Shown: piece after piece, positions 15,398 to 60,816 of the stretch
How positions within the stretch are numbered: the first letter of the stretch is position 1
Layout: every line of letters begins with the position of its first letter
Source: Anaeramoeba flamelloides
Lineage: Eukaryota; Metamonada; Anaeramoebidae
Assembly (NCBI GenBank): GCA_027625915.1
Contig: JANTQA010000070.1
Coordinates: 11,413,001-11,477,000 of the forward strand
Reading direction: 5' to 3'
Length of the DNA stretch: 64,000 nt
Translations under genes and position numbers: made by a program
The notes under the pieces: model-generated
Databases searched by the model: none
What the model was told of the DNA's origin: nothing
The model's input: the letters and a program-made list of their open reading frames with translations, nothing else

Positions 15398-15472
15398 TAA
15401 TAATTAGTGTTTCATTTTTCTGATTTTTTTTTTTTTTACCTTTTTGCTTAATATATATATAATAATGATATA

Positions 15473-16350: not shown

Positions 16351-16355
16351 GTATA

Positions 16356-39852: not shown

Positions 39853-39986
39853 AAAAAAAACTTTTAAAAAACAACAACAACAACAAAAAAAAAAGAATCC
39901 ACGAAAAAAAACAAAAAGCAATTAAAACAAAAAAAAACCCAACTTATCACAATTTCAAAAACAAAAAAAAAAACAAAAATTTCAAA

Positions 39987-41705
39987 ATGGGGATTCATTA
40001 TTCTTCTTACAAAAGTTTAATAATTGTCAAAAAAAAGAATATCAAAGAGTTTTATAATCTAATCGAGAACTCGAATCATGGAATAAACGTGATGGATGAA
40101 AACTACAAAGTTGTTAGATATAACCCATTTTTGTATCAATTGTGTGGCTTAACAAGACCAGAGATGAAATTAATTGTTGGCAATTCACCAATAAGTAATA
40201 ACAAACCAGGAGGACAAGGAATCCTTGTTGCTTACCAACCACACTTTACAAGAACAGCAGGAGCAATGGTTAAGGAAATAATTGTAGAAATCAATAAGAA
40301 CTATACTACAGAAACAGTTTTTCTTCTGCAAAATAAAAAAAATCCAGAGAATATTTTCTTTGCCAAGTCTTATATAAGAAGAGTCCAAGTTGGCAAACAA
40401 ACCCTGACTCTGGCTTCTTTTTTTCCGATCAAGGAAACACCTTTTATTGATCCTCTTCATTCAGAAAACGAAGAAACAATCAAAAAAATAAAATCCAAAA
40501 AATCAAAGAAATCAAAAAAAAAGAACAAGATCAACACAAAAGAAAAGAAAACAGAAAGAAAAAGAAAGAATCATACAAAAGAAAACAAAAAAGCATATTT
40601 CAGTAATTTTAATAATCCATTTCACCTTGCCAATCATTCCAATTTGAATCCTAAAGAAAAATGCGAACCTTCAATTATTGAATTAGATAGTGATTCCGAT
40701 CTTGATCAAAATAATTCTCCTTTAAATTCTTTAAATGATACTGAGAATTCTAATTATACCGACGATGATGAAGAGAATTCTTATGACAGCTGGGTTGAGC
40801 CTTTGACTGATTTCGAGAATGAACCTCAAAAGAATTCTTTTATCCAAAACCAAAACCAAAATTTAAATCAAACAAATAATATCCAAAAGCAAGATCAAAT
40901 TCAAGATCAAATGGTATTTTTAACAAATGCCTTTGTTATGAGTAAATTAATTGAACGGAATTACAGTAATTCAAATTCGTCTTCCCGCAAGAATTCAAAA
41001 GTCTTTCCAAAGGAGCTCAATTCTAAAACTGGTTCTTTTAAGGGCGGCTCTTTCAATAATATCAAAAAAAAGAGAAAAAACAGAAAAACCAAAAAAAGTA
41101 ACAAAAAAAATACAAACAAGAGAAAAACCAAAAGTAAAGCCCAAGGCAAAACCACTAAAAGCAAAAATAATAAAACCAAAAAAAACAAAAAAAATAAAAC
41201 CAAAAGCAACCAGAAAAACATTAAAATTAATAACGTCATCATCAACAACACCAGCATCAATATTAATCACAACATATATAATACTACCATTAACAAGAAC
41301 AATAATAACACAACAATCAACAAAAACATAACCAACATCATCAACAACAGCAACACAGTCAAAAACACCAGAAACAACGACAGTCTCCATATCAATCCTA
41401 ACAACAACAAAAACATCACCAACTATAACAAAATTGACAATAACAATAACAACAAAATTCATGCAAATACTAACATCAATAAAAACAACCTCAACGAAAA
41501 CGCCATCTTCAATGACAAAAACGAAATTGAAAACACCAAAGGCACAATCAATAACAACATATTCAAAAACAGTACAACTGTTGGAAATACAATTTATAAA
41601 TTCGTAATAAATGAGGATCAAAAACCTGAAACAGATCTTGAAAATATTTTGCCTTGTTCCAAAGAAATTGATAACATTTTTCAAGATTATGAATCAGAAA
41701 AGTAA
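39987..41705 (+). CDS. PAS-like signalling protein, paralogue 1
   Basis: 572 residues. MGIHYSSY at the N-terminus fits N-myristoylation (Gly2, Ser6), so membrane attachment is likely. Residues ~20-150 look like a PAS-type sensor: FYNLIENSNHGINVMDENY, RYNPFLYQLCGL, then a helix and strands ending QTLTLASFFPIK. A Lys-rich linker follows (165-205), then two conserved acidic stretches, PSIIELDSDSD (~230) and YTDDDEENSYDSWVEPLTDF (~260), a conserved AFVMSKLIE/FPKELNS block, a long Asn/Lys/Thr-rich region, and the C-terminal motif YKFVINEDQK...LPCSKEIDNIFQDYE. The paralogues end ...SDSQLD; here one extra base near 41697 brings a stop early, and the lost tail is still readable in the next frame. No enzyme domain. 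Assignment as PAS rests on pattern memory, not a search. Confidence 0.85.
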   Translation: MGIHYSSYKSLIIVKKKNIKEFYNLIENSNHGINVMDENYKVVRYNPFLYQLCGLTRPEMKLIVGNSPISNNKPGGQGILVAYQPHFTRTAGAMVKEIIVEINKNYTTETVFLLQNKKNPENIFFAKSYIRRVQVGKQTLTLASFFPIKETPFIDPLHSENEETIKKIKSKKSKKSKKKNKINTKEKKTERKRKNHTKENKKAYFSNFNNPFHLANHSNLNPKEKCEPSIIELDSDSDLDQNNSPLNSLNDTENSNYTDDDEENSYDSWVEPLTDFENEPQKNSFIQNQNQNLNQTNNIQKQDQIQDQMVFLTNAFVMSKLIERNYSNSNSSSRKNSKVFPKELNSKTGSFKGGSFNNIKKKRKNRKTKKSNKKNTNKRKTKSKAQGKTTKSKNNKTKKNKKNKTKSNQKNIKINNVIINNTSININHNIYNTTINKNNNNTTINKNITNIINNSNTVKNTRNNDSLHINPNNNKNITNYNKIDNNNNNKIHANTNINKNNLNENAIFNDKNEIENTKGTINNNIFKNSTTVGNTIYKFVINEDQKPETDLENILPCSKEIDNIFQDYESEK

Positions 41706-42140
41706 ATCTTCTAACTCTCAGTTAGATTGCATATGAGCAAAATAGATTCTGTAAATAAATAATTTAGAGATAAAATAATAAATCAATTTTACCAAACAAA
41801 CCAACAACTAATTTAAGCTCGTTATTTTTTGCAAATTATTTTCATCACAACATTTGCATTTCTTCGATTAGCCAAATTATCCCACGAAATGGTTTACAGG
41901 GTACCAAAATAATAAATCTAAATAATCAATTGACCCTTTGTTTTTGTTCTTATATAATATAAGACACAAATTATTTTAATGAAAGAAGAAACAGGAGAGA
42001 ATGTTTGCAATATATTTTCTGCTCGTTGTTTCTCGATACAATTTGGTTTTTGCGAATGCTTTTATTCAAAGCACATTAAAAAAATATTTGTAATCTCACC
42101 CCATAAAGTTAAAAAAGATAAAAAAGAGAAAGAAGATAAG
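41706..42140 (+). other. 3' flank conserved among PAS paralogues
   Basis: The sequence after the stop (GAGCAAAATAGATTCTGTAA, AATAAATAATTTAGAGA) is shared with 52097 and 60817. Copy 1 and copy 3 remain alignable to about 42140/61225 (TGTTTCTCGAT, ATGCTTTTATT). Probably 3' UTR plus duplicated flank. Confidence 0.65.
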
Positions 42141-43386
42141 AAATAAAATACCAATTTCATATTTCTTAAATAAACTCTTTTTCAGTCAAAGGGGAACATT
42201 TTTATTGAATAAATAGATCAAATTCAACTGATTTTTACCAATATTCTTCTCAAAATAAATTTTCAATTTTGAGATTTGTTCAATTTTTTTGTTATTAAGG
42301 GTCTAGTTATTTATCTTGGATTTACTCCACACATAAGGAGGGACCTGAAAAATAAAAAGGGTATTGTGAAATTGCCCATTCTTTATAAATGACAAAATTC
42401 AAATAACAAAAAAAATAAATTTGAGAGGATCTCTATGTACAAAAATGCAAATCAAACAAAAAAAAAAGTTAATTCTCTTTTTCAAAAAATCAAATTTTTA
42501 AAAAATAAATTACTAGTTTCTTTTTTTCTCTTTCCAAATGTTGAAATTTCTTCAATTTAAAACAAATTGTTTTTTATAAGTTCACAATCAATTTAATTCG
42601 ATTTAATATAATTTGTGGTTAGATTATAACTCTCTATATTTTGCAATTTAAAGATTTTGTAACATTCATGAGATAAATATAACTCATTTGAGAATTGAAA
42701 AAAAAAAAAATCTTTGGGATCTCAAAAAGTACCAAAGATGGAAATTTTCAAACTACAAAGTTCTTTTCAAAACTATACACACACAACCATTCAACTTGGA
42801 AATTTAGTGTCTCTCTTTGGAGTTTTTTTCTACAAACGTCCTCTTTTTTGATTGTTGATTTTTGGAGATCGACCGAATGCGCTTTACTGAGGGTAATTTT
42901 TAATTGGCCATTAAGCACTCATAAAAATAATAAATTTTTTTTTTAATCCATTTCAGAAAATTATTTTTACCATTATGACTCTACCATTAAATAAAACTTT
43001 TTACTTTTTTTTTGCTTTTTACTTTTTTTTATTTTTTCTTTTTATTTTTCTTTTTTTTTTAAGAATACTAATTTGAAAAAAATGTATGAAAAAGTCAAAT
43101 TCACTTTAAGGAAATTGAGCCTTTAGTAATTTCTTATAAAATGAATATATTTATAATTAAAAAATCCTTATTTTCAATAATTGTAATTTTCCAAAGAAAT
43201 TGATATCTTTTATACGAGGTTTAATCAATGAAGGGGTAACAATTTTTATTTTCACATTTTTTTGTTTTCGAAATTTGAAAGTTTGTTAAGGTATATCTTT
43301 TATAAATATCAATTCGAATCTGAAGTTTATTATTTTCCTTATTTCGAAACAATGTCATATTGGTAGGCGCTTTAAAATTCAGATAG
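42141..43386. other. No supported gene
   Basis: An 83-residue plus-strand frame (42695-42946) is not supported by any motif. TTAAGGGTCTAGTTATTTAT at 42297 resembles a family A left end, but no right end was found. 42970-43070 is a T-rich tract. Confidence 0.5.
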
Positions 43387-43589
43387 TACTGCATTAAGAC
43401 ACAAACTTTCAAGGAAATTTAAGGTACAATAAAAATCTAAAATTAAGGCACAAAATTGGAATTTTTTTTTTACAGTATCTAGTAAAATTAATTGTGTGAC
43501 ATAAAAATCCAAAAAAAGTGCCTTCAATTGGGATTTTTATATACCTTAAATTTCGGTGAAAGTTCTTGCGTTAAAAATGGAAATTACTG
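43387..43589. mobile_element. Degenerate GGCACAAA MITE
   Basis: Palindromic plan retained (GACACAAACTTTCAAGG ... TTAAAAATGGAAATTACTG) but the left terminus is missing or mutated. Confidence 0.7.
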
Positions 43590-44033
43590 TAATGATTTTT
43601 TCATTTTTTACGAAGGAACAATGTGTGAAATTATGTTTCTATATTTACAACCTTATACAATTTTATAATTTAGTTAATCAATTACAGTGAAAAAAATTCT
43701 ACAAATTGATAATTTAGAAAAGTAATAACATTTTATGAATAAAAAAAAGGAACAGAAATCAAAACCGGGGAATAGATTCAACAGATTAGAAACTTTAATG
43801 AAGATTGATTATTTCACTCTCTTAAAGATGAAAGAATGCGTTGAAACTAGATATTAAGAATTTCTGATATTACCTATAATTTGATCTACATACCCTCATA
43901 TATATATATATATATATCCCTTAGCACCCCAGATTTGCCTACATTTCATCTAGTTTTTAAAAAAAGTTTTAAAATGATATGGATGTACTAATATATTAAT
44001 TTTCTTATTTATCTTTAATCCAGATTTGTATTA

Positions 44034-44232
44034 CAGCCAGTTTCACTTTTAAGGCACAAACTTCAACGAAATTTAAGGCACAAAAAAAAATCTCAAATTA
44101 AGGCACAAAAACCAAATTCTGATAAAAATAAATTGTAAAAAAAAAAATTCCAAAAATTGTGCCTTAATTTGTGATTTTTTTTTGTGCCTTAAATTTCGTT
44201 GAAAGTTTGTACCTTAAAAATGAAACTGAATG
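44034..44232. mobile_element. Palindromic GGCACAAA MITE
   Basis: CAGCCAGTTTCACTTTTAAG ... AAAATGAAACTGAATG between TA pairs; 199 bp. Confidence 0.88.
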
Positions 44233-44999
44233 TATGATAAAAAGTCAAAATAGACCAAAGATAAATTAGTTAAGTTATTGATTTTTTTTCAAAATTGGAA
44301 AAAAAAAATAACCATTATTCATTTTTACATTTTTATTAAATAGTTTTTTATTTCTTTTAATTTTTTAAATTAGAAATTTTATTACATTAATAGTAATTCA
44401 AAACTCAACACATTGATTTATTTATAATAATAATCAATTAATATTGCTAATTTTATGATAAAAAAATTAAATAAAAAAATAAATTACTCAAAAAAATTTC
44501 AATAAACATCCAATCAAGAGAAAAATGAAATACATTTCTTTAGGCAAAAATAAAATTTTTAATATTATTAATTTTCTAAAACTTTTATTTAAGCAATCGA
44601 TAATAATTGAAAATCAAAAAAAAAAAAAAATGTAAAATAATTTCTGTTATTAAATTAGAATAAAACAAATATAAATTACTTTTTAATAGATAAAATAATT
44701 ATACCTAAATTTGAAAATAAAATAAAAATAACTTTTAAATATTATTCCAATATCCCTTAGAGGACCGAAATCGACCCACTCAGATTTTCGAATTTTTATC
44801 CTAATATTTTTGTACTATGAGAGTGTGACACATGTAGATATATCCCAGCGGGGCAGGACTATGTGAATTTTTCTATCTTTTTCAAAAAATCAGTACACAA
44901 GAGTAAATATGAAATTGGGATCAAAAATTTTTTTTATTCCTCAACAAATTCAAAATTTTCTTAAATTTCGATTTTTGGTGTTTAGAAGTCTCTAGGACG

Positions 45000-45105
45000 T
45001 CTATTTTTCGAGATATTGTCCAAAATCGATTTTTATATACAAATTTTTTAACTGTGATTTTTCACATCTATTTTGGGCAATAACTCGAAAAATATAAGAC
45101 CCCAA
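45000..45105. repeat. Hairpin with TTTTTCGAGATATTG arms
   Basis: TTTTTCGAGATATTGTCC pairs with GGGCAATAACTCGAAAAA across a ~40-bp loop. It sits in a locally GC-richer patch (44755-45110) without an open frame. Confidence 0.55.
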
Positions 45106-45715
45106 AAAAAATGAAAAATTGAGATTGTTTTTATTTTGTTTATATAGTGACCCCATAGATTAAAATAAATTTTAAAGTTTTTTTTTAATTGTAGATATTA
45201 GTATATATAAATAATCTAAAATCTTCTACTCCCCATACAGAAAAAAATACTTAGTTACCAGTATTTATCCGAATTTTGGTACCTTAAGAGGATTTGAATT
45301 TATGAAAAAAAAAATTTTGAAAAGATTTAAAGGTAAATTCAGGTAGCAAACATGTACACTTTAATTGATCAAATTATATATATAAAATTTAAAAAAAAAT
45401 AAAGAAAAAAAATCATAATTTAATCAGACTAGAACTATTAGACCAAATCGTTTAAATTTGAAAAAGAAATTGTTGAAAAAATTTCCAAATTTTACAATGA
45501 TTAAAAAATATTATTTTTTTTTCAAATTTAATTTATTTTTTTTTTATTTTTAAATTATTTAGAATCAAATATAGATATTGATATTGAATGGTAATCAGTA
45601 GATAAAACAAATTTTCTATGTGATGATAAAATAACTTTTGTAATGAATAAATTATTTAATCAAACATTGTAGGCTAATTTTGGGGTGCAAAGGGCCCCAA
45701 AAAAATTTCCAGTAA

Positions 45716-46347
45716 AGTATGATATGTTTTAAATGTTAAAACTAAGAGGTTTTTGATGTCTAGACAAACTTTTCAACAAAAAAATTATTTTGACAAAATT
45801 TGGAAAAATAATAAAATCTCAAGAACGAAGTAAAATTTTTCCACTGTTAAAAAAATTGTTTTCAGTTATTTTTTTATTGAGATTTTGAACAAAGAATGAA
45901 AACCATTTTATTTGCTGTGCATCAAAAAGAGAAAAATCATTTGAATTTTTTTCTTGATTAAATATTACTTCCTTTTTTCGGCACCAGCCAAAATACTGCA
46001 CAACTAAAACAAAACATTTTATTTTTACAAATCGTAATATAACTATTCTTTCTATGAGTTGAGGAATTAAAATTCTCTGTTTTGTTATTTCCTTCAATCA
46101 AAAAAAGCAAAAATCTAAAAACTGTCATACCTTCAAGAATCCCAAGGTTTTCATTCCAATGTTTATTTGTTAATTTTCAAAACAGACTTATTAATAAATT
46201 ATCTCAAAAAGTCAATCTCATTTATGAAAATGATTCCCAATTCCTGGTGTCTATTAAAGATTTGATTTTTTATTGTAAATATCTCTACAAATCAAGCAAT
46301 TAAATAGTAATTTCCAGTCTTGGTCTTACTAAAGAACTTTATATCTA
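45716..46347. other. No supported gene
   Basis: Two divergent frames (45819-46097 minus, 46082-46303 plus) of 92 and 73 residues show no motif and no splice context that I can defend. Confidence 0.45.
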
Positions 46348-46540
46348 CATTCAGTTCCACTTTTAAGGCACAAAATTTCAACGAAATTTAAGACAATAAA
46401 AATCTCAAATTAAGGCACAAAAACCAAATTCTGATATAAATAAATTGTAAAAAAAAATTACATATTTTGTTCATTAATTTGAGATTTTATTGTGCCTTGA
46501 ATTTCTTTTGAAAGTTTGTTTCCAAAAGTGGAACTGACTG
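46348..46540. mobile_element. Palindromic GGCACAAA MITE
   Basis: CATTCAGTTCCACTTTTAAG ... AAAGTGGAACTGACTG between TA pairs; same terminal variant as 16356-16553. Confidence 0.88.
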
Positions 46541-46799
46541 TAGTATAAAAGTCATTTCCCTGTTCAACACCAATCTATTTCAGATAAATCTCTTCACTTG
46601 ATGAATACCCTTCTTTTTTAACCCCAACTATATTTATATTTCCACAAGTACTCTTTAAACAATTCGAAATTAAAAAACAGTAAATGATATTTTCTCAAAA
46701 GAAAAAATAGTTTCAATTTCTTATCTTTGGTATTTTTTTCTTTATTGGTTGATTGATCAACAATTCATCCATTTTTTAATACTATTTGTTACAATATAA

Positions 46800-47010
46800 A
46801 AGGAAACAATATTTTCATTCAGCTTCCCAAACAAAGATATTAAAAATCATACCCAATTTCAAATTTTCAAGTTCGAAAAGTAGTTTAAATGATTAACTTC
46901 CCTTTTAGAATGGGGATCTTTGATGGTTTATAAAATTCTTGAGAGTGTGTGTTTTTTTTTGGAAAGCTGAATGAAAATTTGGATTGTTTTATTTTGCAAT
47001 TAACAGTATT
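46800..47010. repeat. Dispersed repeat family G, copy 1
   Basis: TTTTCATTCAGCTT and AAGCTGAATGAAAA are inverted near its ends. The interior (AACTTCCCTTTTAGAATGGG) aligns with 57605-57845. Confidence 0.6.
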
Positions 47011-48122
47011 TAAAGAAATACTATTATTTTTGGTGTTGATTAATAATAATTAGAAAAAATAAAAAATTTAGAAATTGTTGTGAAAGAATTGAATTCAATA
47101 CTTGACGATAAAAATGTACTTTTTTCTTTGGACAATTCCTATCTGGCAAAGGACAACTTTCAGAGATAACTCTTAATATTTCATCTGAATTAAATTTTGA
47201 GTACTTGAGGACAACTCTGTTCATATTTTGATCAAACAAGTTGAAAATGATCAAAATTGGACTTTTCTATTTTGAATTGTCAATCTTTAGAAAACTTTAT
47301 TTTTTCGAAAAAAAAAGAAGAAATACCAAGAATAAGGATTACAAACCCGAAGGCAATTGATATTAAATTCAAACTACCAAACCACAAACACTTATTAATA
47401 CAATAACATTTAAAAAGACTAAAATAGAAAATGGATATTATTCGTTATTATTCTAGATTTTGTGATTAAAATAGAGTATTGATTTTTAAGACATTTTTCT
47501 GAAGCAATCTTTATGAAATCTTAATTAAGAGAAGTGAAATCATCTGTCACATCGATTATCCTTCTTCAAGCCTGATTTTAAATTCTTATTAACCCCAAAA
47601 AATCCTTTTAAATTTTAGTCAGTTTTGTTTCAAAAAACAATGAAATTTTTTTTATAAACTTTTATCCCTCTTTTTTTCAGATATCACCTTTTTTTTAATC
47701 AAAGAAAAAATTTTAAAATGGGAGGAATTCAGTTTGATTCAAATTAAAGAAATTAGATGCTTTGGAAAAATAAATTTAGAAAAAGTTTAGATTTTTAAAT
47801 GAAAATTGATTTTTTTGTAATTTTATTTTTTGGAATTCTTAATAGTTCCAAAAAGGTGAAAGTTTTTTAAGGATTGAAGAATTTTTGTAAATAAAACAAT
47901 AAGATTTTTGATTTTCAATTTTAAGTCGAAACAGTGATCTGAGCTCTGTAACAAATTCACAAATTGCAATTAAAAATTGGAATAATTTTTTCAAAAAAAA
48001 TCCACAGATTAAAAAAAAACTCTTTAATTTGCAACCGATTATCCAGCCCCCAAGAAAATTGAATTTTTGATTCATTCTTTTGTTTACAATGAATTGAAAA
48101 AAAAATTTCAAAACCAAATTAC
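47011..48122. other. No supported gene
   Basis: Two minus-strand frames: 47024-47254 contains a polar, non-repetitive stretch (SDEILRVISESCPLPDRNC) that could be an exon remnant, and 47839-48117 looks like chance. Neither is confirmed. Confidence 0.4.
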
Positions 48123-48288
48123 AGTACTGGTATTTGAATTACAAATGGGAAATTTTTTCACTTGGTTTACAATTTCCTTTTTCAAACAAAACTCCAATTT
48201 ACAACCTGGTTCTGTAGGGAACTCTGTTTATCATAAACAAGGAAAATGATTTGAAAATATTTTCCCATTTAGACTTCAAATACCAGTA
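48123..48288. repeat. Small palindromic MITE cut by the next element
   Basis: CAGTACTGGTATTTGAATTA ... TTCAAATACCAGTA are inverted. The right end is replaced by the start of the 48284 element, whose insertion probably truncated it. Confidence 0.55.
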
Positions 48289-49696
48289 TGGTAAAATAAT
48301 TGGGACAATTAGATTTTAATTGGGACTGGTTTTGTGTAAGACACAGTTTTTGAACCGGATCATTTTTTCAAAACCAAGACAGGTTTTATTTGGGTCGTTG
48401 ACTTTTATTTGGCATAGTTTTTTTGAGAGACATTTTTTTGTGTCCCTTTCATGTTAATTGGGACATTTTTTTTTGAGAGACAAGGCTTTTAAATTTGGAC
48501 ACTTTACTCTAACCAGTTACAAAATTTCACAATGCCTTTAGTTTTTATTTTGGAGAGACAAACAACAAATCCAAAAGGATCCTTTCAAAATTGAATACAG
48601 TACAATCACAATTAATTTAAATTCTTATTCCCAAAACACACTGATTTTCGGAAGAAAACAATTGAAAAAACTCACATCGAAAGATCCCTTTCTTGAACAA
48701 TTTCAAAAAAAAAGTAAATTATGAAGATTGAAAATTGATGAAAAAAAAAGAAGCTGAGAAACCGAAAAAAAGAAGGTGAACAAAAATAAATCCAAATAAA
48801 TACTCGATCAATTTTGTTGAAAAAAAAAAGAATAAAAAGGTTTATTTGAGAAAGATTTTTATAATAATTTAAAAAAGAGATTTGACTTGGTTCTATTGGA
48901 CTAACACTGGTTTGACATGTTTGGGTATTTAAAAGTTATTTGGTTGTTTGTTGTTGGTTTGACTTCTTGTGCGTTTTGGAACTGGTGTGCTATTTGGTGT
49001 TCTGATTTTATGAAAGTTTATTATTACCACCACTTTTCGATTTCTTTTTCTTTTTTTGTTGGTTTTTTGCCTTTTGTAGTTTTCTTTTCTTCTTCATTTG
49101 TTTGCACCCTCTCTTTTTATTAGTATTACTATTGGCACCATTTGAATTTCTTCTTCTACTGGAATTTACTTCTCCTTCATCACTTTCTTTTGAGTTTTTG
49201 ATTTATTGTTGATAATTTGTTTTAATGAATTAACATCACCAAACAAGATTTTTTTTTCAAAAAAGCCATCGAAAAAAAATTAATTAAAAAAAATGAAAAA
49301 CGTGTACATAAATTGTTTTCAAAATTGAGAACATGGCTGAGGAATCAAATAGAAGAAGAAAAATGTCTGGAAATTACGTATAAATTATCCATTTTTTTTC
49401 AAATAAAAAAATACAAGTACTGGAGATCTCTTAAAAACCAACACCCTGAGATTTAAAAAATTGACAAATCTAAAATTGTTTGAAAATTCACTTTCAAGAT
49501 ATAAAAATTGTCCCAGTTTTTAAAAACACAACCCAAAATTTTAAAAATGTTCCAATTTAAAAACTTCGTCTCTAAAAAAAATAATGTCCCAGAAAAACCT
49601 ATCTTTGTTTTGAAAAAATGATCCGGTTCAAAAACTGTGTCTTACACAAAACCAGTCCCAATTAAATTCTTGTGTCCAAAGTAAATTACCATACTG
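48284..49696. mobile_element. 1.4-kb CAGTATGGTAA element, ~180-bp terminal repeats
   Basis: CAGTATGGTAAAATAATTGG ... ACCATACTG followed by TA (49697-49698). The first ~180 bp and last ~170 bp are inverted repeats; TTTTGAACCGGATCATTTTT lies in both arms. The interior holds only a 68-residue hydrophobic frame (48917-49123), so no transposase is recognisable. The size would suit a Tc1/mariner relative that has lost coding capacity. Confidence 0.8.
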
Positions 49697-49871
49697 TATG
49701 AGGAAAAAAAAGATTTTTCCAAGAATTTGCAAATAATCGAAAAGCCTTGAGAGTATACTTAACCATTTTTCAACAAAACAAAAACTTCCATAATTTGTTG
49801 ATAATTAGATATTGAGAATAAATTCTCCCTTTTTTTGGTTTTCAATCAATCTATTTGAAAAATAATGAATT

Positions 49872-49894
49872 CATTTTTTTTTCTTTTTACCCTC
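49872..49894 (+). promoter_or_regulatory. Shared T/C-rich box upstream of PAS gene 2
   Basis: TTTTTTTTCTTTTTACCCTC, ~175 bp before the ATG, then A-rich leader; see the box at 39829. Confidence 0.45.
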
Positions 49895-50068
49895 CAAATT
49901 TTCAACAAAATTCAAACACTCAAAAAAAACAAAACAACTAAAAAACTTTTAAACAATAAAAAAAAAGACTGTACCGCTGAAAAAAAAACAAAAAGCAACT
50001 AAAAATAACAAAAAACTAGAACTCGCTTCAATTTCAATAACAAATAAAAAAAAAACAAAAATTTCAAA

Positions 50069-52096
50069 ATGGGAATTCATTATTCTTCTTATCCAAAAGT
50101 CGAAGTTATCAAAAATAAAAAAAAAATCCAAGAGTTTTATAAACTCTTTGAGAACTCAAACCGTTGTGTGGTGTTACTGGATGAAAAAAATCAAGTTTTT
50201 CGATATAATCCATTTTTGATCAAGAGATTTAGCATATCTCCAAAAGTGATTCAAGCAAATGTTGGCCATTCAGCTGTTAGTAATAATAAACCAGGAGGGA
50301 AAGGAATCCTTACATACTACCAACCCCAATTTAAACTATCATCTATGATCTTACTTTTGAAATTATTTGAAAAAGTAAATCAGAACCACACAGCTGAAAT
50401 TACTTTGCTTATGAGAAATACAAAAAATCCAGACGATATTTTCTTTGCAAAGAATTTTCTAAGAAAGATCCAAATTGGCAAACAAACCCTTACTCTAATT
50501 TCTCTGATTCGTCTAAAGGAGACAATTCTTGATTATTATCTCTCAGAAAACGAAGCAACAATCAAAAAATTAAAACCCAAAATTACACATCAAAAATCAA
50601 AAAAAAGAGAAAAGAAAAAGAAACAGATTGAAAAAGTAAAAGTAAACGAAAAAAAAGCAAAATCAAATTCAGGTAATTTACAAAACCCATTTTTCTTTGA
50701 CAACTTTGGTTCTCTAAAGAATTATCAACCCTCAATTGTCGAATTAGATAGTGACTCAGATCAAAAAGATAATCAAGAGAATACAAACCATGTAGATCAA
50801 AAAAATGATCAAATTGATAAAGATAATTCTACCGACGATGAAGATTCGTCTTATGATAGTTTGGTTGAGCCTTTAACTGATTTAGAGAATTTCTCCAATA
50901 GGAATTCTGTAAACCAAAACCAAAATCAAAATTCAAATTTAAATCAAAGAAATAATAATCAAAACACAACCCAGAGTACAAATATTTTGACCTGTGCCTT
51001 TGACATGAGTAATTTAATTGAACACAATTACAGTAATTATAATTCGTCTCTGACCAAGAATTCAAAATTATTTCCAAACGAGCCCAATTCTAATCCCAAT
51101 GGTTTTCAGGAAGGTCTTACAATAACAACAAAAAAAGACAAAAATAGAAAATCAAATTCACAAAAAAAAAACAAAAATACTTTTAAAAATAAAAACAATG
51201 GCAAAAATCAAAAAACCACGAACCAAAGAAACAGAATAAATATTCAAAACAAAACCAATAATAATAGAAAAAAACCAAGTCACAACAAAATCATTTATAC
51301 TTTTAAAAATAGCAACAAAAATAACAGCAGAAGCAAGATTCAAAACAAGCCCAATCATAACAGCCAAACCAACACCGACACAACCCATACATACACTAAC
51401 AACAAAAATAACAGATTTGATTGTTACAATAATCCCAACACAATGAACAAAAGAAACAAAAAAATACGAATAAGAGAAAAGTTTAAAGCAAAATTTGATA
51501 CCCAACAAAAATATAAAACGAAGAGAAAATTCAAGAATTACAATACAAACATCAGTATTAATAACATCACTAACAAGACCAACAATTACAAAATCAATAA
51601 CATCAATAACACAACCAACATCAACATCAACATTAACAATAAAAGCACAATCAAAAATACCAGAAATAACAACAACTTCACAATCAATAAAATCAATAAA
51701 ATCAATAAAAACAGCACAGTCAATAAAAGTACAGTTGAAAACACCAGAAACACCAAAATTCATGCAAATACTAACCTCAATAAAAACAAAATCAACAATG
51801 GCAAAATGACAATTGGTAACACCAAAATTCATGCAAATACTAAAATCAATAAAAACAACTTGAACGAAAACACCTTCAACAACAAAGGCATAACCAATAA
51901 CAACAAAAGCACAATCAATAACAACATATTCAAAAACAGAATCACTATTAAAAATACAATTTATAAATTCGTAATAAATGATGATCAAAAATTTGAAACA
52001 GATCTTGAAAAAATTTTGCCTTGTTCCAAAGAAATTGATAACATTTTTCAAGATTATGAATTGAAAAGTAAATCGGCTGACTCTCAGTTAGATTGA
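50069..52096 (+). CDS. PAS-like signalling protein, paralogue 2 (longest)
   Basis: 675 residues, starting MGIHYSSY. The PAS-like part (~20-150) diverges most from the others: it reads FYKLFENSNRCVVLLDEKN and RYNPFLIKRFSISPK, and has GGKG where they have GGQG. The two acidic motifs (PSIVELDSDSD, STDDEDSSYDSLVEPLTDLEN) and the block AFDMSNLIEHNYSN are kept. Its Asn/Lys/Thr-rich region is about 100 residues longer, partly by internal duplication: KIHANTNLNKNK and KIHANTKINKNN occur close together. The C-terminus is complete: VINDDQKFETDLEKILPC, KEIDNIFQDYE, ...SADSQLD, TGA stop. A 297-codon antisense frame over the repeats is a shadow. Likely membrane-attached and cytoplasmic; ligand and partners unknown. 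Confidence 0.87.
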   Translation: MGIHYSSYPKVEVIKNKKKIQEFYKLFENSNRCVVLLDEKNQVFRYNPFLIKRFSISPKVIQANVGHSAVSNNKPGGKGILTYYQPQFKLSSMILLLKLFEKVNQNHTAEITLLMRNTKNPDDIFFAKNFLRKIQIGKQTLTLISLIRLKETILDYYLSENEATIKKLKPKITHQKSKKREKKKKQIEKVKVNEKKAKSNSGNLQNPFFFDNFGSLKNYQPSIVELDSDSDQKDNQENTNHVDQKNDQIDKDNSTDDEDSSYDSLVEPLTDLENFSNRNSVNQNQNQNSNLNQRNNNQNTTQSTNILTCAFDMSNLIEHNYSNYNSSLTKNSKLFPNEPNSNPNGFQEGLTITTKKDKNRKSNSQKKNKNTFKNKNNGKNQKTTNQRNRINIQNKTNNNRKKPSHNKIIYTFKNSNKNNSRSKIQNKPNHNSQTNTDTTHTYTNNKNNRFDCYNNPNTMNKRNKKIRIREKFKAKFDTQQKYKTKRKFKNYNTNISINNITNKTNNYKINNINNTTNINININNKSTIKNTRNNNNFTINKINKINKNSTVNKSTVENTRNTKIHANTNLNKNKINNGKMTIGNTKIHANTKINKNNLNENTFNNKGITNNNKSTINNNIFKNRITIKNTIYKFVINDDQKFETDLEKILPCSKEIDNIFQDYELKSKSADSQLD

Positions 52097-52315
52097 ATAT
52101 GAGTAAAATAGATTCTGTAAATAAATAATTTAGAGAGAAAATAATAAATCAATTTTACCAAATAAAACCAATAAAAAAATTAAGATCTTTAATTTTTCAA
52201 AATATTTTCATCAAAACATTTGCATTTCTTCAACTCGTCAAATTGCCCCACAAAATGGTTTACAAGGTACCAAATAATAAATCTAAATAATCAATTGACT
52301 TTTTTTGTTCTTCTA
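52097..52315 (+). other. 3' flank conserved among PAS paralogues
   Basis: Closely matches 41716-41940 (AATAGATTCTGTAAATAAAT, CAAAATGGTTTACAAGGTAC) and then diverges. Confidence 0.65.
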
Positions 52316-53155
52316 CAATTGAAGACACAAATAAATCAAAGTTGTTTTATTTTTTTCCAAATTTCTCCTAGCTGTACTGAATTTTCAATATTATGGGAAG
52401 AAGAGTTACAAAGGAAAAAGATCAAGTGGTTACTCACAAATACCGAAAACACTGAAACACGACACCATGGTTAATTTGAAAATAAAAAATAAAAAAGAAA
52501 AAACAAAGGCAAAAAATACAAAAGGTTTTAAAGTAAATTGATCAAAAAAAGAAAAAAGGAAAAAGAAATTAAACAACGACCTCCCTAATTGAACATTCAG
52601 GATCAATTATTAAATTGAACTAAATTAACCAAAAATGCCATGGTTGTGATTTTTGAGTGTTCTTAATTATAGATTGTATTTTTTTTTTATTATTTGATTT
52701 TTTCAATTGCTTATTATAAACACTTTTTTAATTTCTTTTACTTTTTTCTTTTTTTCTTTTCAATTTTTTTCTTTTACTTTTTTAAAATAAAAAAAATTTG
52801 TATATCTTTCTCTTGAATAATCTTTAAAACTGCGATTTTAATCTTAAATTTCCTTTGATGGAATTTTAAGTTAAATTACATCTAGAGTGTTATTTACACT
52901 TTTTCAATACTAATAAAAAAATTTACTATTTGATAATTTATGAAATGTATAAAAATATCAATGATAAAAAAAAAAAAAAAAAATGTAATTTAATAGGACC
53001 CAACCAAAATCGTACATGTCTTAAAAATTACTATTATTATTTTGTTCTATTTTTAAATTCTTGTCATTTTCAATTTTTCAAGCTTTTTTGAAATTTATCT
53101 TGTTTTATATATTCTAAAATAATTTATAAAATAATTAAAATATAATAATAAACCA
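52316..53155. other. No recognised gene
   Basis: AT-rich. At 52858-52912 there is a decayed version of the GNLSKR tail with ATCTAGAGTGTTATTTACAC, as at 34330. Long T/C-rich tract at 52720-52790. Confidence 0.5.
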
Positions 53156-53671
53156 AATTCCAAAATTTTGGACACGGTTTAAACAGTTAAACGAATCAAT
53201 ACTCAACATTACATTCAATTTGGAATAATTTTGATTTTACAAACTATTTCATTTTTTGTCTTTTTTGTTTTGGTTTCATTTCCTTTTTTCAAGTTACGTC
53301 ATATGTTTCCTTCGATCTGGAATTTTTTTTTGATGGTTGATAGAAGATTCAGGTTGAGAATTTACTAAATAGAAGAATTCAAATAAAATTAGTTAATGAT
53401 AAAATCAATTAATTGACCAATATTCCTAATAGAATTTCAAAAAATTTTATCAATACATTTTTTGTTTCGCTCGTTTCTTTATTTTGGACACACAGGTTTT
53501 TATTTTTTGTGTTTTAAATTTTTTTCTTTTATTTGGATGAAAATAATTACTTATTAAAACATTAATAATGTGTAACTTAAATGTGGTTTTAGATTAGGTT
53601 TAGAAAAATATAATAAATTGATTTTGTTTTTTTACCTATTTTTGATTTTGGGTGTCCAAATTTTTGGAATT
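53156..53671 (+). mobile_element. TIR element, TTCCAAAATTTTGGACAC family, copy 1
   Basis: TTCCAAAATTTTGGACAC on the left and GTGTCCAAATTTTTGGAA on the right. Aligned along its length with 62178-62696. No conserved frame. Confidence 0.75.
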
Positions 53672-54042
53672 GGATTTACATAATTGCACTTAAATATTAC
53701 AAAAAAGTATAGATTCGAATGTAGTTACAATTTAAAATACTAAAAACCTTTAATAGATTAATATGATTATTGCAAGTAACGTCTTTTATTTAGAAAGATT
53801 GTTGGATTATAGAAAACTTTTTGAGAAAAAAAAAATATGAAAAGATAAATATATCATCTCAAAAACTGAACCAGGGAATTTTTTTATTATAAAAATAATA
53901 AAAAATTATTAAATACAAAAAAAAAGCAATAATATTATATTAAAAATTTAAAATTATTAAATGAAAAAAAAAATATAAAATAAAATAGTAAATTATTGTT
54001 AAAGATAGTTAAAGATGTTTAAATACAAAAACATTATCTATC

Positions 54043-54073
<31 letters not shown>

Positions 54074-55184
54074 ATCCCTATTATCCAAAAAATACTAAAA
54101 ATGTAAAACTGAACAAATTATTTCTATTAAAAAAATTAAAAAAAGTCTGTGAAAAAATAAAAATAATTAAAATTTCCATTTAACTTTTTCTTGAAAACAT
54201 TTTTTGCCAAAATAATTGAATTCAAACTTGAAATTTTGTATATTTTTAGAGACAATTTCTGATTTTAACTCATTTACAAAAACAAATTTTAAACTAAGAG
54301 AATTTTATTTTTACAAAAGGGACCAATTTGGTCTTCAAATGTTGTTTTATTTTTAAATGGTAAAATTAAAAAAAAAACTAGTTAAAAAAGATAAATTCTC
54401 TGGAAAAATATTCTAATCTAATATATTAACTTATTCTTTGATTTCAAAATTTCCTCAACCGTTATTTTTCCAATAAAAATAAAAAAGTACACAATAATTT
54501 CAAAAAATATTTTCGATATTCCAAAGTTGAGAGTGTTTTTATTCTAAAAAAAATTATCCCAGTAATTAATTGAATTAAGTTATAAAGCTAGATTTCGAAA
54601 AATATTAATCAGAAAAAAATTATATTTTTTATATTAAGGACATATAAATATATATAAATAAGTTTTATAATATTAACAAATTTTACAACTTCAAAAAATA
54701 GATTACAAAAAAAAATATATTATTTTTTTTTTTTATTTTTCTGTTTGTGTGATATTTGTCCTGATGATCTAATTCTTAGGATAATAACCATATTATTAAT
54801 TAGAATTTTTCTTGTTGATCTAAAAACTGATTTTGAAAATAAATTGTTTTTTTTTTTTAACTAAATGTTGAAAAAACTAAAAAAAAAAAAAAGACATCAA
54901 GATTAGTTCTAATCAATTACTAATTTTAATTTTGGTTTGACTTGTAAAACTATCTTTTCTTTTTGTTGACTCAATTGAAAAATTAAAGTAAATTATTGTT
55001 TCCTTAATCTATTTTTGTATCATTGGTGTTTGAAAAAAAAAAAATACTTTACATTGTATATTCTTTCATTTAAAATTCTATATTTTTTGCAACCAGTCAA
55101 ACAATTTTCAAAACCTTGACATAATGAAAAGTTGAATTTTTAATTTTATAGCAATTTCCATTTTGAAACTATAAAAAAAATGTA
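53672..55184. other. No recognised gene; extreme AT
   Basis: Contains an (AT)n-(GT)n microsatellite at about 54040-54074 and long A/T runs. No frame to support. Confidence 0.6.
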
Positions 55185-55188
55185 TTAA

Positions 55189-56401
55189 GGGACTAGTAAC
55201 TCTTATTTATTTTTTTCCCCAAAGGTAATAGAGTAATTATTTACATAAGGATACAATTGAACCCAATAAGAAACTTCGTTTGTCAACTTTAGAGAAATGA
55301 ATCATCATTTTTAAAAGATTTCATTTTTCTCCAATTAAATTTTCAGTCAAAAGATCTAGATCCTTTTTTGTTGGGTTTTTTGAATCAAATTAGAAAAATA
55401 AAAATTTGCAAAAAAATTTAATTTTTGAAGAAATATCACTTTTAGTAATTTTTGAGAGTCTTTATGAGCAAGTAACCTTGTGGCTTTAATATTATTTTAA
55501 AAATACATGAAAAATAAATCAAATATTGTATCCTTGAAGATCTAAAAAATTTGAACATTTATTTTATTCACAAATATTTATGAAATTTCGTGAAATTTAA
55601 GAGACTTGCCAATATACTTTTTCAAATATCAAGAGTATAAACAAGGAACTGTTTGTCGTAAAATCAGTTATTTGATAATATCTATTATTTTTTTAAATAT
55701 TAGATATATGCATTTGAATTGTTTTATTTGTTGCAAAATCTTGAAAAAATTGAGAAATAAATGTAAAACCTATTGGATAAATTTAATCATTGGGTTGTTA
55801 ATGACTTACTAAAAAAATATAAATTGGTTTATAATTATTAATTATAAATAATCAAATTAAAAAGTATTTCTTGAGATAATAAGTTGAATTTTCCAGGTTT
55901 TAAAAAAGTATTTCTGGAGAATTTTTAATTCGATTCTTTGGTTCTTTTTCTCAGATTTTTTCATTTAATCCCTAGAAAAAATAGATTTGGTCTATTCTTT
56001 GAATCAAAAAATTATATTTTTTTCAAGTTTAAAATAATTATTGTAATTTTTTTTGAGATTAAGTAGATTTTTTAAACTTGGTTATTTTAGAACTTCGTGG
56101 TTTTATTTTTAAAGTGTATTTTTGTACACTTCCTTTACAGGCAATAAGATTTCAATCTTCTTTCAAATAAAATAATTTTTTTTTAAATAATTTGGAAATA
56201 TGTTGGATTTTGAACTTTTCAAAAATGAGAAAAAAGGATCAGTTTTTAAAAACAATAATTCATTTCTGAAAATAGTATTAAAAGTAAGCCATGTCTTGTA
56301 GTTATCAGATTTTTACTTTATTTTTCAATTTCAAGATTCGGTAAATTTTTTTTTAATTTGTTAGTAAATTTACTTGAAGATTTTTTTAGTTTACTAGTCC
56401 C
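55189..56401 (+). mobile_element. Family A TTAA element, full length (1213 bp)
   Basis: GGGACTAGTAACTCTTATTT ... TTTAGTTTACTAGTCCC between TTAA at 55185-55188 and 56402-56405. The best-preserved termini of the family: the outer ~14 bases are perfect inverted repeats. Confidence 0.9.
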
Positions 56402-56405
56402 TTAA

Positions 56406-57604
56406 AGATGATCTATTTAAAAATTTTTGGCTAACTTCTTTTAATTCTTCTTCTTTCTTTAATTGTATATTTTGGAGAAATTTCAAAAAGAAAATTGAAT
56501 GGTTTTATTATTTAATACTTCACAACCATCAAATATAAATTTCTCTTTTTTTTTGAGAATTTAACTTTTGAAGATACTGATATTTAATAAACAAATCGAT
56601 TATTATTAAAATAATACCCTTTTTACTCAATTGATTGTTAATTGTTTATTATTTCTCTGAATTTGAGTTTTTAATTTATTTAAAGTGTTTGAGGAATAAA
56701 TGTGATAAAAGTTCAACAAATGATCTTTTATTAATTTACAAATCTAACCTGTATTTAGGACCATTCTTTCATCCAAAATATACTCCTACATATGCAAAAA
56801 AAAGAACTAAACATATAAATTGAGACACAAAATTCAACTTATTTTTAAAAATACTCTTTTTTGTAAGGAGGGGCGAAATGAAAATGAAATAGAAATTTTT
56901 GCAAGATTTCAATACTTTTTTTCAAAAATGGTTGTTTATTGTTATTTTTGTCTTTGAATTTGTATTTTTAATTATTTTGTCAAATAAAAAATTATCATTA
57001 GCTGTATTTTATTTTTATTGAGCTAGAAAATAATGAACATAATTAATTATTTAGATCTATGGTTTTGAATTTATTTAACCAAAAATTATTTTTTCTAGTT
57101 GAAGATCTTAAACTAAAAGATTTTGAAATTGATTGAATATTTTTCAAAAAATCCCATTTCATTGACGTATATCTTCACTAAAAAAGCGCCTTAACAAGTG
57201 AAAAAACAGTCTTTTAAATAAAAACATACTTGTTCAATAAATATTTTTTATTGGGTAAAAAAATGGTTTGATTTTGTAAAAAGTGAAATGTATCAAATAT
57301 TTAAGAAAACAGAACAATTAAAATTGTCTTATTCGATTCACAGATCATTTGAAATTTCAATTTTTTATTATCTTCAATTTAGAATCACCCAAAGTAGTTT
57401 TAATTTTAACTGATTTTTTGATAAAGAGTTTTTTCAGCTCAAGACTAATTCCTAGTGTGGTAGTGTTTTCTCTAAAATGCTAGATACTATTTGTTTCAAA
57501 AAGCTCTTTAGATTTCTTTCAACAAATAATTTGATGAAATATTTATATACTTGAATTTATATTTAATCTTCTGTTAATTGGAAACAACTGTATACTATTT
57601 TTTT
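56406..57604. other. No recognised gene
   Basis: A 62-residue plus-strand frame (56635-56823) has no supporting feature. Confidence 0.5.
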
Positions 57605-57845
57605 CAAAATAAATGGAACAAAATATTCATTTGGCTTTACACAAAAAGATTTTTAGATCATGGAAATTACAAATTTTTCATTTTTTGAGTATAAACGCTT
57701 AAATTAAATACTTCCCTTTGAGAATGGGAGATTTTGAGGATTAGTTTTATTTGAATTCTTTGAATAGATATTTTTGAGAGAAAAATGAAAGCAAATTTGA
57801 AAGAAAATAGTGAAATTTTTATTTTATAATTCACAGTATTAATTT
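57605..57845. repeat. Dispersed repeat family G, copy 2
   Basis: CTTCCCTTTGAGAATGGGAG and flanks align with 46800-47010 in the same orientation; moderately diverged. Confidence 0.5.
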
Positions 57846-58096
57846 GATTTTCACTCCTTACAGCCCTTTATATTAAAATAATCGAAAAACTGTAAATGGC
57901 AGATATTATGACACTACAATTTATTTGGTTTGGAAATTTCAGGATTTTTTATTTGATTGTAGACAATCTACGAAAAATATTTTGAAAAAGGATCACTTTA
58001 GCTTTTTTTAATTTCCTGAAATAACAAACGATTATATTTTGGAGTAATGGTCAATTTTTCAAAGAACGAACAACGGTTATAATTTGTCTATGATTT

Positions 58097-59038
58097 GAAA
58101 TTGAAAAATTGAAAACCAAAAATTGAATTAACCATTTTGAAAAAAATTTGGTCCTTAAAACTAAAAAAATTAGTTCAGTTGAAAATTTTTTTTCGTTTCT
58201 TAAAAAGTAAATATTGGCAAAATTTTTTTTGATCAAAGGATCGTTTTATGAACAAACCTTCCAGTCAAGTAAAAGCAATGTCATTTCCAATAAACACTTT
58301 CAGAAAGAAGATTATTTCGTTACATTTTGAGACTATCAAATTTCTTTGGAAGGCTAAAAATACAAAAATTGAATTTTAATTGCACACTTTACAACAAATA
58401 GTTAATTTTTTTTATTAGATTTCATTCCAAGAACAAGTTAGTTGTTTTCTGGGAAGACCAAAAATGAACAGTTTTGTTAAAGTAAGAATTGTTCTATGGC
58501 GATATTAGATTTCAATGGTTTCTAAAATCATAATATTTCGTTCTTTCGAAGTTTTAATTCGAAAAATTTAGTGAAAAACAATCTCTTTCGAAAAAAACAG
58601 CTTTTTTGGAAGATTTTATTTGATTCAATTTGGTTGAAAAGGATATTAAAGATTAACCTTGATAAATTCACGTTATCTATCAAAGATAAATATTTCAATT
58701 GAATTAATAGATTTCTCCATCAAAAGGAATTTTATTTTTAGTAAAGTTTATAATTATAATTCAAATTTTGGTTGTTTTAGTGATCCAAAGTAATTCCAAA
58801 GAGTTGAAATGCAAATTAATAATATTTTTTCTGAAAATGTTTATTAACTGTATCTTTGGTTTTTTCTGAAATGTAAGATATGACCATAAAATGATACTTT
58901 GATCAAAAATAATTTTGCCAATATTTACTTTTTAAAAAACGAAAATAAATTTTCAACTGAACTAATTTTTTTGTTTTAAGGACCAAATTTTTTTCAAAAT
59001 GGTTAATTCAATTTTTGGTTTTCAATTTTTCAATTTGA
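58097..59038. repeat. Long inverted repeat (142-bp arms) upstream of PAS gene 3
   Basis: 58097-58238 and 58897-59038 are inverted copies at about 95% by eye (TTTTGAAAAAAATTTGGTCC, AGTAAATATTGGCAAAAT). The spacer is ~658 bp. The right arm ends ~40 bp before the shared T/C-rich box of PAS gene 3. The other two paralogues have nothing like it. Confidence 0.85.
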
Positions 59039-59078
59039 AAACGAAATATTTCATTTTTAATTTGTAATTTTTGATTTT

Positions 59079-59100
59079 CATTTTTTTCTTTTTGCCCCTA
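59079..59100 (+). promoter_or_regulatory. Shared T/C-rich box upstream of PAS gene 3
   Basis: CATTTTTTTCTTTTTGCCCC, ~130 bp before the ATG, followed by AACAACAAC as in gene 1. Confidence 0.45.
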
Positions 59101-59229
59101 AAAAAAACTTTTTAAAAACAACAACAAAAAAAAAGAATCGATTAAAAAAAATCAAAAAGTAACATTAAAAAAAAAACAAACCCGAACTCGTCACAATTTC
59201 AAAAACAAAAAAAAAACAAAAATTTCAAA

Positions 59230-60816
59230 ATGGGGATTAAATATTCTTCTTACAAAAGAAAAGAAATTGTCAAAAAAAAAAATATCAAAGAGTTTTATAA
59301 CCTAATTGAGAACTCAAATCATGGAATAGTCATGATGAATGAAAAATACGAAATTTGTCTGTACAACCCTGAAATTCGTCGGCTGTGTGGCTTATCTCCA
59401 AAAGAGATCACATCCAATGTTGGCAATTCACCAGTTAAGAATAATAAACCAGGAGGACAAGGACTCCTTAATCTGTACCAACCCCAATATAAGATCTCAG
59501 CATTCATGCTAATTAAGGCAATAATTGAAGAAGTCAATAAGAACTACACTGCAAAAACAATTTTTCTTCTGCAAAATAAAAAAAATCCAGAGAATATTTT
59601 CTTTGGCCAAAGTTATTTGAGGAGAATCCAAATTGAGAAACAAACCCTGACTCTTGTTTCTTTTTTTCCGATCAAGGACACACCTTTTATTGATCCTTAT
59701 CATTCAGAAAACGAAGCAACAATCAAAAAAATAAAACTCAAAAAATCAAAGGAATCAAATACAAATAACAAGAACAACACAAAAGAAAAGAATAAGAAAG
59801 TGAAAAAAAGAACCATACAAAAGAAAACAAAAAAAAATTCAAGACATTCGGATAGGTATATCTGCCTTTCTAAAGAAACCAATTTCGATCTTCGAAACAA
59901 ATATCAACCTTCAATGATTGAATTAGATAGTGATTCCGATACTGATCAAAATAATAATCCTTTAAATTCTTTAAATGATTATGAGAATTCTAATTATACC
60001 GACGATGATAAAGAGAATTCTTATGGCAGCTGGGTTGAGCCCTTGACTGATTTCGAAAATGAACCTCAAAAGAATTCTTTAAACCAAAAACAAAATTTCA
60101 ATCAAACAAATAATATTCAAAACAATATCCAAAATCAAGATCAAATGGTATTTTTAACAAGTGCCTTTGTTATGAGTAAATTAATTGAATTGAATAACAG
60201 TAATTCAAATTCATCTTCCCACAAGAAAACAAAAGTCTTTCCAAAGGAGCTCAATTCGAAAGATGATTCTTTTAAGGGAGGCTCTTTCAATAATATCAAA
60301 AAAAACAGAAAAAACAAAAAAAGTAACCAAAAGAGAAAAACCAATAAAAAAAATTCTACAAGCAAAAAAAGCCAAACCACCGCCACCAACAACAAAAATA
60401 ATATTCAAAACAAATCTACTGATAACAGCCAAACCAACTCCAATATTAATCACAACATAAATAACACTAAAATTAACAAGAACAATAATAACAACACAAT
60501 CAACAAAAACATAAAAACAGTCATCAACAACAGCAACACAGTCAAAAACACCAGAGATAACAAAATTCATTCAAATCCTAACAACAATAAAAACAACATC
60601 GACAATAACAACACTGACAACAACAAAAACACAATCAATAATAATGTCCTCAAAAACCGCAAAACTGTTAAAAATATCATTTACAAATTCGTAATAAATG
60701 ACGATCAAAAACCAGAAGCATATCTTGAAAATATTTTACCTTGTTCCAAAGAAATTGATGGCATTTTTCAAGATTACGAATCGGAAAGTAATTCGTCTGA
60801 TTCGCAGTTAGATTGA
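59230..60816 (+). CDS. PAS-like signalling protein, paralogue 3
   Basis: 528 residues, beginning MGIKYSSY (myristoylation-like). The first ~157 residues align with paralogue 1 without gaps: the same FYNLIENSNHGI, NNKPGGQG, IFLLQNKKNPENIFF and FFPIKDTPFIDP. The later motifs PSMIELDSDSD, YTDDDKENSYGSWVEPLTDF and AFVMSKLIE are also shared, so 1 and 3 are the closest pair. The low-complexity region is shorter. The C-terminal motif is intact (VINDDQKPEAYLENILPC, KEIDGIFQDYE) and the protein ends ...SSDSQLD with TGA. Conserved islands separated by fast-changing Asn/Lys tracts argue for selection on the protein. Possible role: membrane-tethered PAS sensor or adaptor, with an effector contacted through the C-terminal motif; this is inference. 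Confidence 0.87.
   Translation: MGIKYSSYKRKEIVKKKNIKEFYNLIENSNHGIVMMNEKYEICLYNPEIRRLCGLSPKEITSNVGNSPVKNNKPGGQGLLNLYQPQYKISAFMLIKAIIEEVNKNYTAKTIFLLQNKKNPENIFFGQSYLRRIQIEKQTLTLVSFFPIKDTPFIDPYHSENEATIKKIKLKKSKESNTNNKNNTKEKNKKVKKRTIQKKTKKNSRHSDRYICLSKETNFDLRNKYQPSMIELDSDSDTDQNNNPLNSLNDYENSNYTDDDKENSYGSWVEPLTDFENEPQKNSLNQKQNFNQTNNIQNNIQNQDQMVFLTSAFVMSKLIELNNSNSNSSSHKKTKVFPKELNSKDDSFKGGSFNNIKKNRKNKKSNQKRKTNKKNSTSKKSQTTATNNKNNIQNKSTDNSQTNSNINHNINNTKINKNNNNNTINKNIKTVINNSNTVKNTRDNKIHSNPNNNKNNIDNNNTDNNKNTINNNVLKNRKTVKNIIYKFVINDDQKPEAYLENILPCSKEIDGIFQDYESESNSSDSQLD

Follow-up and report, generated by a model that had tools for sequence, protein, structure and literature searches.

A tandem array of PAS-like proteins with a myristoylation-type start and conserved tail motifs in Anaeramoeba flamelloides

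PAS proteins commonly hand their signal to a fused output domain. The locus described here raises the question of how PAS-like proteins may act when no such domain is found. It lies in a stretch of 64,000 nucleotides of Anaeramoeba flamelloides DNA (C70:11413001-11477000 of a genome of 254 Mb in 76 contigs), which is called the window in the following, and comprises three related genes and a fourth one just beyond the end of the window. We give about an even chance to the interpretation that their products are enzyme-free PAS adaptors which are anchored at a membrane and carry several docking motifs on a disordered tether. With some 25 PAS genes, no output domain found in the window copies, and a lipid-anchor signal and tail motifs kept over great divergence, the family would then be a compact example of a PAS signal passed on solely by docking.

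In such an adaptor, Met1 would be removed and Gly2 N-myristoylated, and the basic N-terminus together with a Lys-rich linker would help to hold the protein at the membrane. The PAS domain, whose fold is supported, would sense a small ligand or bind a partner or another family member. The long Asn/Lys tail, probably disordered as judged from its composition, would serve as a tether which displays fixed short docking motifs, namely IIELDSDSD, resembling a SUMO-interacting motif (SIM), an acidic VEPLTD, a short hydrophobic helix and, at the C-terminus, a strand-helix module. This last module, ILP....ID.IF, may bind one conserved partner, possibly the protein's own PAS domain. The output would be recruitment rather than catalysis, and tandem copies would diversify through duplication and segment exchange, with the docking motifs kept.

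The tandem array and its genome-wide family

39987-41705, + strand: copy 1, intron-free open reading frame (ORF) of 572 aa, ATG to stop
50069-52096, + strand: copy 2, intron-free ORF of 675 aa, ATG to stop
59230-60816, + strand: copy 3, intron-free ORF of 528 aa, ATG to stop
C70:11480640, about 3.6 kb beyond the window end, same strand: copy 4, 578 aa from ATG

Copies 1-4 form a same-strand tandem array with start-to-start distances of about 10.1, 9.2 and 8.4 kb, and all four are open frames. The original prediction had grouped the three ORFs of the window by an MGI.YSSY start, a PAS-like domain, ELDSDSD and VEPLTD islands and a C-terminal LPCSKEID.IFQDYE, all of which are present; it was wrong in calling the paralogues dispersed, since a fourth copy follows beyond the window and all four have the same orientation. 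Over residues 1-177, the similarity between copies 1 and 3 is far above chance (E 6.6e-75). In the PAS region copy 2 is the most divergent of the four, and copy 3 is nearly identical to copy 4. The stop codon of copy 1 is situated about 8 codons before that of copies 2-4, with an offset of about 25 nt in the tail.

Joined homology between the array units extends from about 110-200 bp before the gene to 130-430 bp after it, and a few more matches are scattered elsewhere. The final part of the upstream flanks, directly before the ATG, is nearly identical in all four copies:

39833-39986, + strand: conserved 5' flank of copy 1
49952-50068, + strand: conserved 5' flank of copy 2
59081-59229, + strand: conserved 5' flank of copy 3

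Between 41706 and 64000, when the genes and any frames that overlap with them are set aside, there are just three stop-to-stop frames of at least 90 aa (92, 99 and 93 aa).

The window copies are one subfamily of a genome-wide family of some 25 genes. A genome search with residues 1-179 of copy 1 (E <= 0.001) yielded 29 places, which amount to about 28 loci, since L032 and L033 belong to a single locus; a second query gave 32 places and added pieces on C9 and C37. From the 29 places, 25 usable proteins were obtained, with L012, L027, L032 and L033 left out as broken or partial. Among the other 24 proteins, identity to copy 1 in the N-domain ranges over 20-68%. A second array is located on C57 (11733971, 11743299 and 11751715); its broken member at C57:11733971-11735438 (L012, L040) contains several in-frame stops and stands beside two intact copies. 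A scan of viral contigs with a single protein gave 10 pattern matches with no relative among them, and a literature search found no publication on a myristoylated PAS protein.

Constraint, PAS-like domain and N-terminus

Selection was estimated as omega (dN/dS) with the GY+F3X4 model in IQ-TREE for seven long members, i.e., the four array copies, the C48 protein and two C57 copies. The p values are rough, since the islands are short and kappa was taken from a grid with omega fixed at 1. The parts concerned are as follows, with omega for the seven members:

40041-40442, + strand: copy 1 PAS domain, residues 19-152 (omega 0.38, p 2e-11)
about 50126-50524, + strand: copy 2 PAS domain, counterpart of copy 1 residues 19-152
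about 59284-59685, + strand: copy 3 PAS domain, counterpart of copy 1 residues 19-152
40674-40700, + strand: copy 1 island 1, IIELDSDSD, SIM-like (omega 0.23, p 0.002, 16 codons)
50735-50761, + strand: copy 2 island 1, IVELDSDSD, SIM-like
59914-59940, + strand: copy 3 island 1, MIELDSDSD, SIM-like
40758-40835, + strand: copy 1 island 2, TDDDEENSYDSWVEPLTDFENEPQKN (omega 0.17, p 8e-5)
40911-41054, + strand: copy 1 island 3, MVFLTNAFVMSKLIE to FKGGSF, partly predicted helical (omega 0.50, p 0.005)
41586-41696, + strand: copy 1 C-terminal module, NTIYKFVI...ILPCSKEIDNIFQDYE (omega 0.20, p 4e-6)
51953-52063, + strand: copy 2 C-terminal module, counterpart of that of copy 1
60673-60783, + strand: copy 3 C-terminal module, counterpart of that of copy 1

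A purifying constraint on the islands, the PAS region and the C-terminus is supported by these values. Selection on the conserved islands had been proposed from their conservation, with a dN/dS near 1 named beforehand as the outcome that would speak against it; omega was below 1 in all three islands, in the PAS region and at the C-terminus, with 0.17-0.23 for islands 1 and 2 and the C-terminus as compared to 0.90 (p 0.7) for the Lys linker. With the four array copies alone, omega was 0.26 (p 0.016) for the C-terminus and 1.65 (p 0.12) for the Lys linker, values which are weakened as tests by exchange between the copies. For the Asn/Lys tract, omega stayed at its start value of 1.0, with very long branches and an unreliable alignment, and fixed values of <= 0.6 fitted worse than 1; the tract was treated as uninformative. 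Pairwise NG86 estimates, which are noisier than the omega fits, ranged from 0.21 to 0.75 in the PAS region over seven pairs, and were near or above 1 for some short pairs with very few changes (island 1 of copies 1-3, 1.11; C-terminus of copies 1-2, 1.05).

A PAS fold of residues 19-152 is supported by predictions. At E values up to 1, the Pfam profile PAS_8 was matched by 17/25 and PAS by 16/25 members (best E 9.9e-5); matches of the window proteins are below the curated cut-offs, and the profile match is therefore weak (copy 3, E 0.0014; copy 1, E 0.13). The AlphaFold model of the N-domain has the PAS alpha/beta topology, and its best Foldseek neighbours are the heme PAS domain of E. coli DOS and LOV domains. 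Pfam, AlphaFold and Foldseek thus agree on the PAS-like domain which had been read from the sequence. Equally, the absence of a catalytic domain was confirmed as far as Pfam cut-offs go: none was exceeded by such a domain in the three ORFs, and the sole Pfam match of copy 2, MobB, had an E value of 0.056, which is below its cut-off. Since no second domain over cut-off was present, a kinase, cyclase or DNA-binding output would not be expected.

Compared with the PAS superfamily (PF00989 / PF13188), the sequence type and the predicted topology over residues 19-152 are the same, whereas the window ORFs have no other domain over cut-off, no invariant His or Cys, and scores below the curated cut-offs. 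Short LOV proteins (PpSB1-LOV and kin), which appeared among the Foldseek rows, are likewise stand-alone PAS folds without an output domain, but the window family differs by long Asn/Lys-rich tails with fixed islands, by a myristoylation-type start, and by the lack of a Cys that is invariant across the three window copies. The eag domain of KCNH channels is an N-terminal eukaryotic PAS domain at the membrane, and its structures 4hp4, 4llo and 4hp9 were present in the VIA list; no channel domain was matched in the window ORFs, where anchoring would be by lipid.

Such neighbours could suggest an environmental sensor with a bound cofactor (heme, flavin or similar), for which the PAS domain would be the whole point and the tail a passive spacer. 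Heme DOS and LOV domains as best Foldseek neighbours, and the high rank of LOV proteins in the VIA list, speak for it. Heme PAS domains possess a conserved proximal His in helix F. In the alignment of 25 N-domains, however, only F22, N46 and Q84 are invariant, and neither a His nor a Cys is; the commonest His (16/25) is missing from the window clade and was read as lying outside the predicted helix 91-101, and no Cys column exceeds 9/25, so that the proximal His of heme PAS and the photoactive Cys of LOV have no conserved equivalent. A LOV or heme sensor was rejected on these signature residues. In addition, omega is lower in islands 1 and 2 and the C-terminus than in the PAS region, which argues against a tail that is passive throughout, and a cofactor sensor in general appears unlikely.

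The N-myristoylation consensus is a Met-Gly start with Ser or Thr at position 6. The corresponding feature of copy 1 is

39987-40013, + strand: N-myristoylation-type start MGIHYSSYK, with corresponding starts at 50069 and 59230

The family conforms to this consensus, with Met-Gly in 25/25 members and Ser/Thr at position 6 in 22/25; Lys is at position 4 in 21/25, and the three members without Ser/Thr at position 6 begin with MGNKS. The Met-Gly count leans toward this start, since, for matches that did not themselves open with an ATG-GG start, the script picked one up to 75 nt upstream. In L025, L026, L028, L030 and L031 the match began past the start, and in the upstream frame the first Met is followed by Gly; in L016 an additional in-frame ATG occurs upstream of the chosen start. 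The genome has two loci for N-myristoyltransferase (NMT; E 4e-67 and 4e-66). The myristoylation-like start of the original prediction was borne out as a sequence signal, and Gly2 is probably N-myristoylated.

Putative docking motifs of the tail

The C-terminal module aligned as a hydrophobic strand-like stretch followed by LE.ILP....ID.IF, with ILP....(I/V)D.IF as the family-wide motif. By pattern it is present in frame in 12/25 members, and it is conserved between paralogues which are about 30% identical in the N-domain. With two queries, the module was found at 14 genome places (13 + 1), some with weak E values. All 14 adjoin a PAS-like domain, 12 of them in the same open frame; at the other two (C57:11735304 and C43:6001792) it is downstream of the PAS-like domain, with stops between. 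Apart from the PAS family it was not found in its own genome with these queries. No significant Pfam family was matched, DyP_N being the only match at E values up to 1 (1/8 members, E 0.054), and the best match among PDB sequences, MRG15, covers 20 residues with an E value of about 1, as expected by chance. The novelty which had been claimed for this motif therefore holds against Pfam, PDB and its own genome. A derivation from MRG was rejected on that E value; no MRG profile matched the module. In the full-length model, a strand and a helix are predicted in the module, with very low confidence; the model of copy 3 contains a helix at residues 304-321, in island 3, with very low pLDDT. The conserved motifs represent ready peptides for finding partners.

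Island 1 agrees with the SIM consensus, which is a hhXh or hXhh core with an acidic/Ser flank (PMC8616421, in excerpt): a hhXh core is followed by acidic residues and Ser. We hypothesize that island 1 could bind SUMO or SUMOylated proteins. The pattern is present in 4/4 array copies (copy 4 reads VVELDSDSD) and in both intact C57 copies. Scored after residue 155, a loosened SIM pattern occurred in 14/25 members, as compared to 1.55 summed from shuffles, the relatives not being independent. Proteins of the Daxx and PML type have a similar hhXh-type core and then DSDSD, cf. Daxx IIVLSDSD (PMC8616421, in excerpt); the window family differs in that a candidate SIM, a PAS domain and a myristoylation-type start are combined in one protein, as read here from sequence. 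Two SUMO-like genes of the genome, ending in GGF, were named by reading, and most of the 143 matches of the search for them resemble ubiquitin repeats.

L014 (C48:151605) and L016 (C16:29522) end in SIIEIISD, a motif of the type which the window proteins carry internally. Nine of the 25 members end in (F/I/V)EE(I/L/F), as compared to 0.0067 expected by composition for this pattern, which was chosen after the fact; these ends resemble the non-canonical SIM TVEEVD of yeast Ssa1 (PMC8616421, in excerpt). Hsp70-like EEVD and CAP-Gly EEF tails were rejected as explanations of the paralogue ends, since the final residues of some members disagree with them. A more specific scheme would comprise lineage-specific, lipid-anchored PAS adaptors whose tails read SUMO by island 1 in the long members and by SIIEIISD or (F/I/V)EE(I/L/F) ends in others, and which couple a PAS-sensed membrane signal to SUMO signalling through the new C-terminal docking module; we regard it as doubtful.

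The same motifs could be read as those of a nuclear PAS co-regulator, with a Lys-rich tail for import, SIM-like and C-terminal motifs for the recruitment of SUMOylated chromatin proteins, and an incidental Met-Gly start. Net charges of the tails of the window copies are +22 to +48, a SIM-like motif is present, and LP..K.(I/V)D.I..DY weakly resembles part of the MRG domain in MRG15, a domain encoded at 2 genome places. The MRG match is at chance level, however, and the presence of Met-Gly in 25/25 and of Ser/Thr at position 6 in 22/25 proteins, whose identity to copy 1 in this region is as low as 20%, argues for a myristoylation signal in use. We consider a nuclear co-regulator rather unlikely.

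Several points weigh against lipid-anchored adaptors. Myristoylation and membrane location are predictions from sequence, and in the first 20 codons omega (0.49, p 0.11) is not significantly below 1. Copy 2 has no Pfam PAS match, the models are of low confidence (pLDDT 49 for the N-domain and 31 for the full length), and the best profile match among PDB sequences had only E 0.18. By pattern, the C-terminal module is missing in 13/25 members. The SIM pattern is degenerate, being matched in 10-12% of composition shuffles of the window proteins, and it is missing in 11/25 members, including the close relative L008, in which the acidic flank is lost; L018, L020, L023, L025 and L028 hold it in other sequence settings, perhaps by chance. 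SUMO readers are commonly nuclear, which is awkward with a membrane anchor.

Segment exchange and other features of the window

Segment exchange among the array copies is well supported, since copy 4 is a patchwork of stretches shared with copies 1-3. It has an unbroken run of 144 matching polymorphic sites with copy 3 (nt 124-508 in coordinates of copy 1), one of 51 with copy 1 (nt 1365-1629) and one of 26 with copy 2 (nt 1282-1331), with 0/5000 permutations in each case; the remaining three pairs gave 21, 58 and 183 of 5000 permutations. A further sign of exchange is that the 3' ends of copies 1 and 2 (41355-41971 vs 51731-52332) are 85% identical, and their PAS-holding stretches (39879-41087 vs 49952-51151) merely 72.5%. 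The recombining array makes it possible to tell fixed parts, the putative docking motifs, from free parts, the tethers.

The patchwork of copy 4 and the omega of 1.65 for the Lys linker in the array would also be expected of a recombining, fast-evolving array which is selected for diversity, e.g., for recognising variable partners such as symbionts or prey. This appears quite improbable, since the linker value does not exceed 1 significantly, both the PAS region and the islands are constrained, and gene conversion is usual in tandem arrays even without diversifying selection. Most improbable are decaying duplicates with conserved patches left over from recent duplication only, as might be suggested by the broken C57:11733971 copy and by further disrupted or incomplete pieces at C57:4084 and on C74, because all four array copies are open, omega is below 1 with p down to 2e-11, and the C-terminal module is kept between paralogues whose N-domains share about 30% identity; a pseudogene array was rejected on the open frames and omega.

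Ribosomal S6e was found at 16 places in the genome, in agreement with the expansion of ribosomal protein genes (>1100) reported for A. flamelloides (PMC11550330, in excerpt). Scans of the window for tRNA and Rfam families gave 0 matches. The G+C content per 2 kb bin is 16-29% across the window, except for one bin with 41%; such an AT-rich composition is likewise in keeping with A. flamelloides. Further features of the window are:

9671-11641, - strand: Cys-rich ORF of 656 aa with a possible C-terminal membrane segment (by reading), no Pfam match at E 0.01
1387-2560, 32639-33870 and 55179-56406, plus fragments in inverted orientation at 22541-23169 and 24374-24950: dispersed repeat, about 1.2 kb long
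15196-15405, 15466-15670, 16350-16556, 17241-17443, 35692-35890, 36316-36517, 44025-44234 and 46340-46542: repeats of about 200 bp, in both orientations
26426-26893, - strand: exon-like ORF similar to lecithin:cholesterol acyltransferase (PF02450, E 0.00037, just under cut-off)

The Cys-rich ORF is situated in the bin with 41% G+C, with about 24% on either side, and was possibly transferred or is highly expressed. Copies of the 1.2 kb repeat are 75-87% identical, one of them lying between array copies 2 and 3. The 200 bp repeats are about 74-90% identical and resemble a small non-autonomous mobile element.

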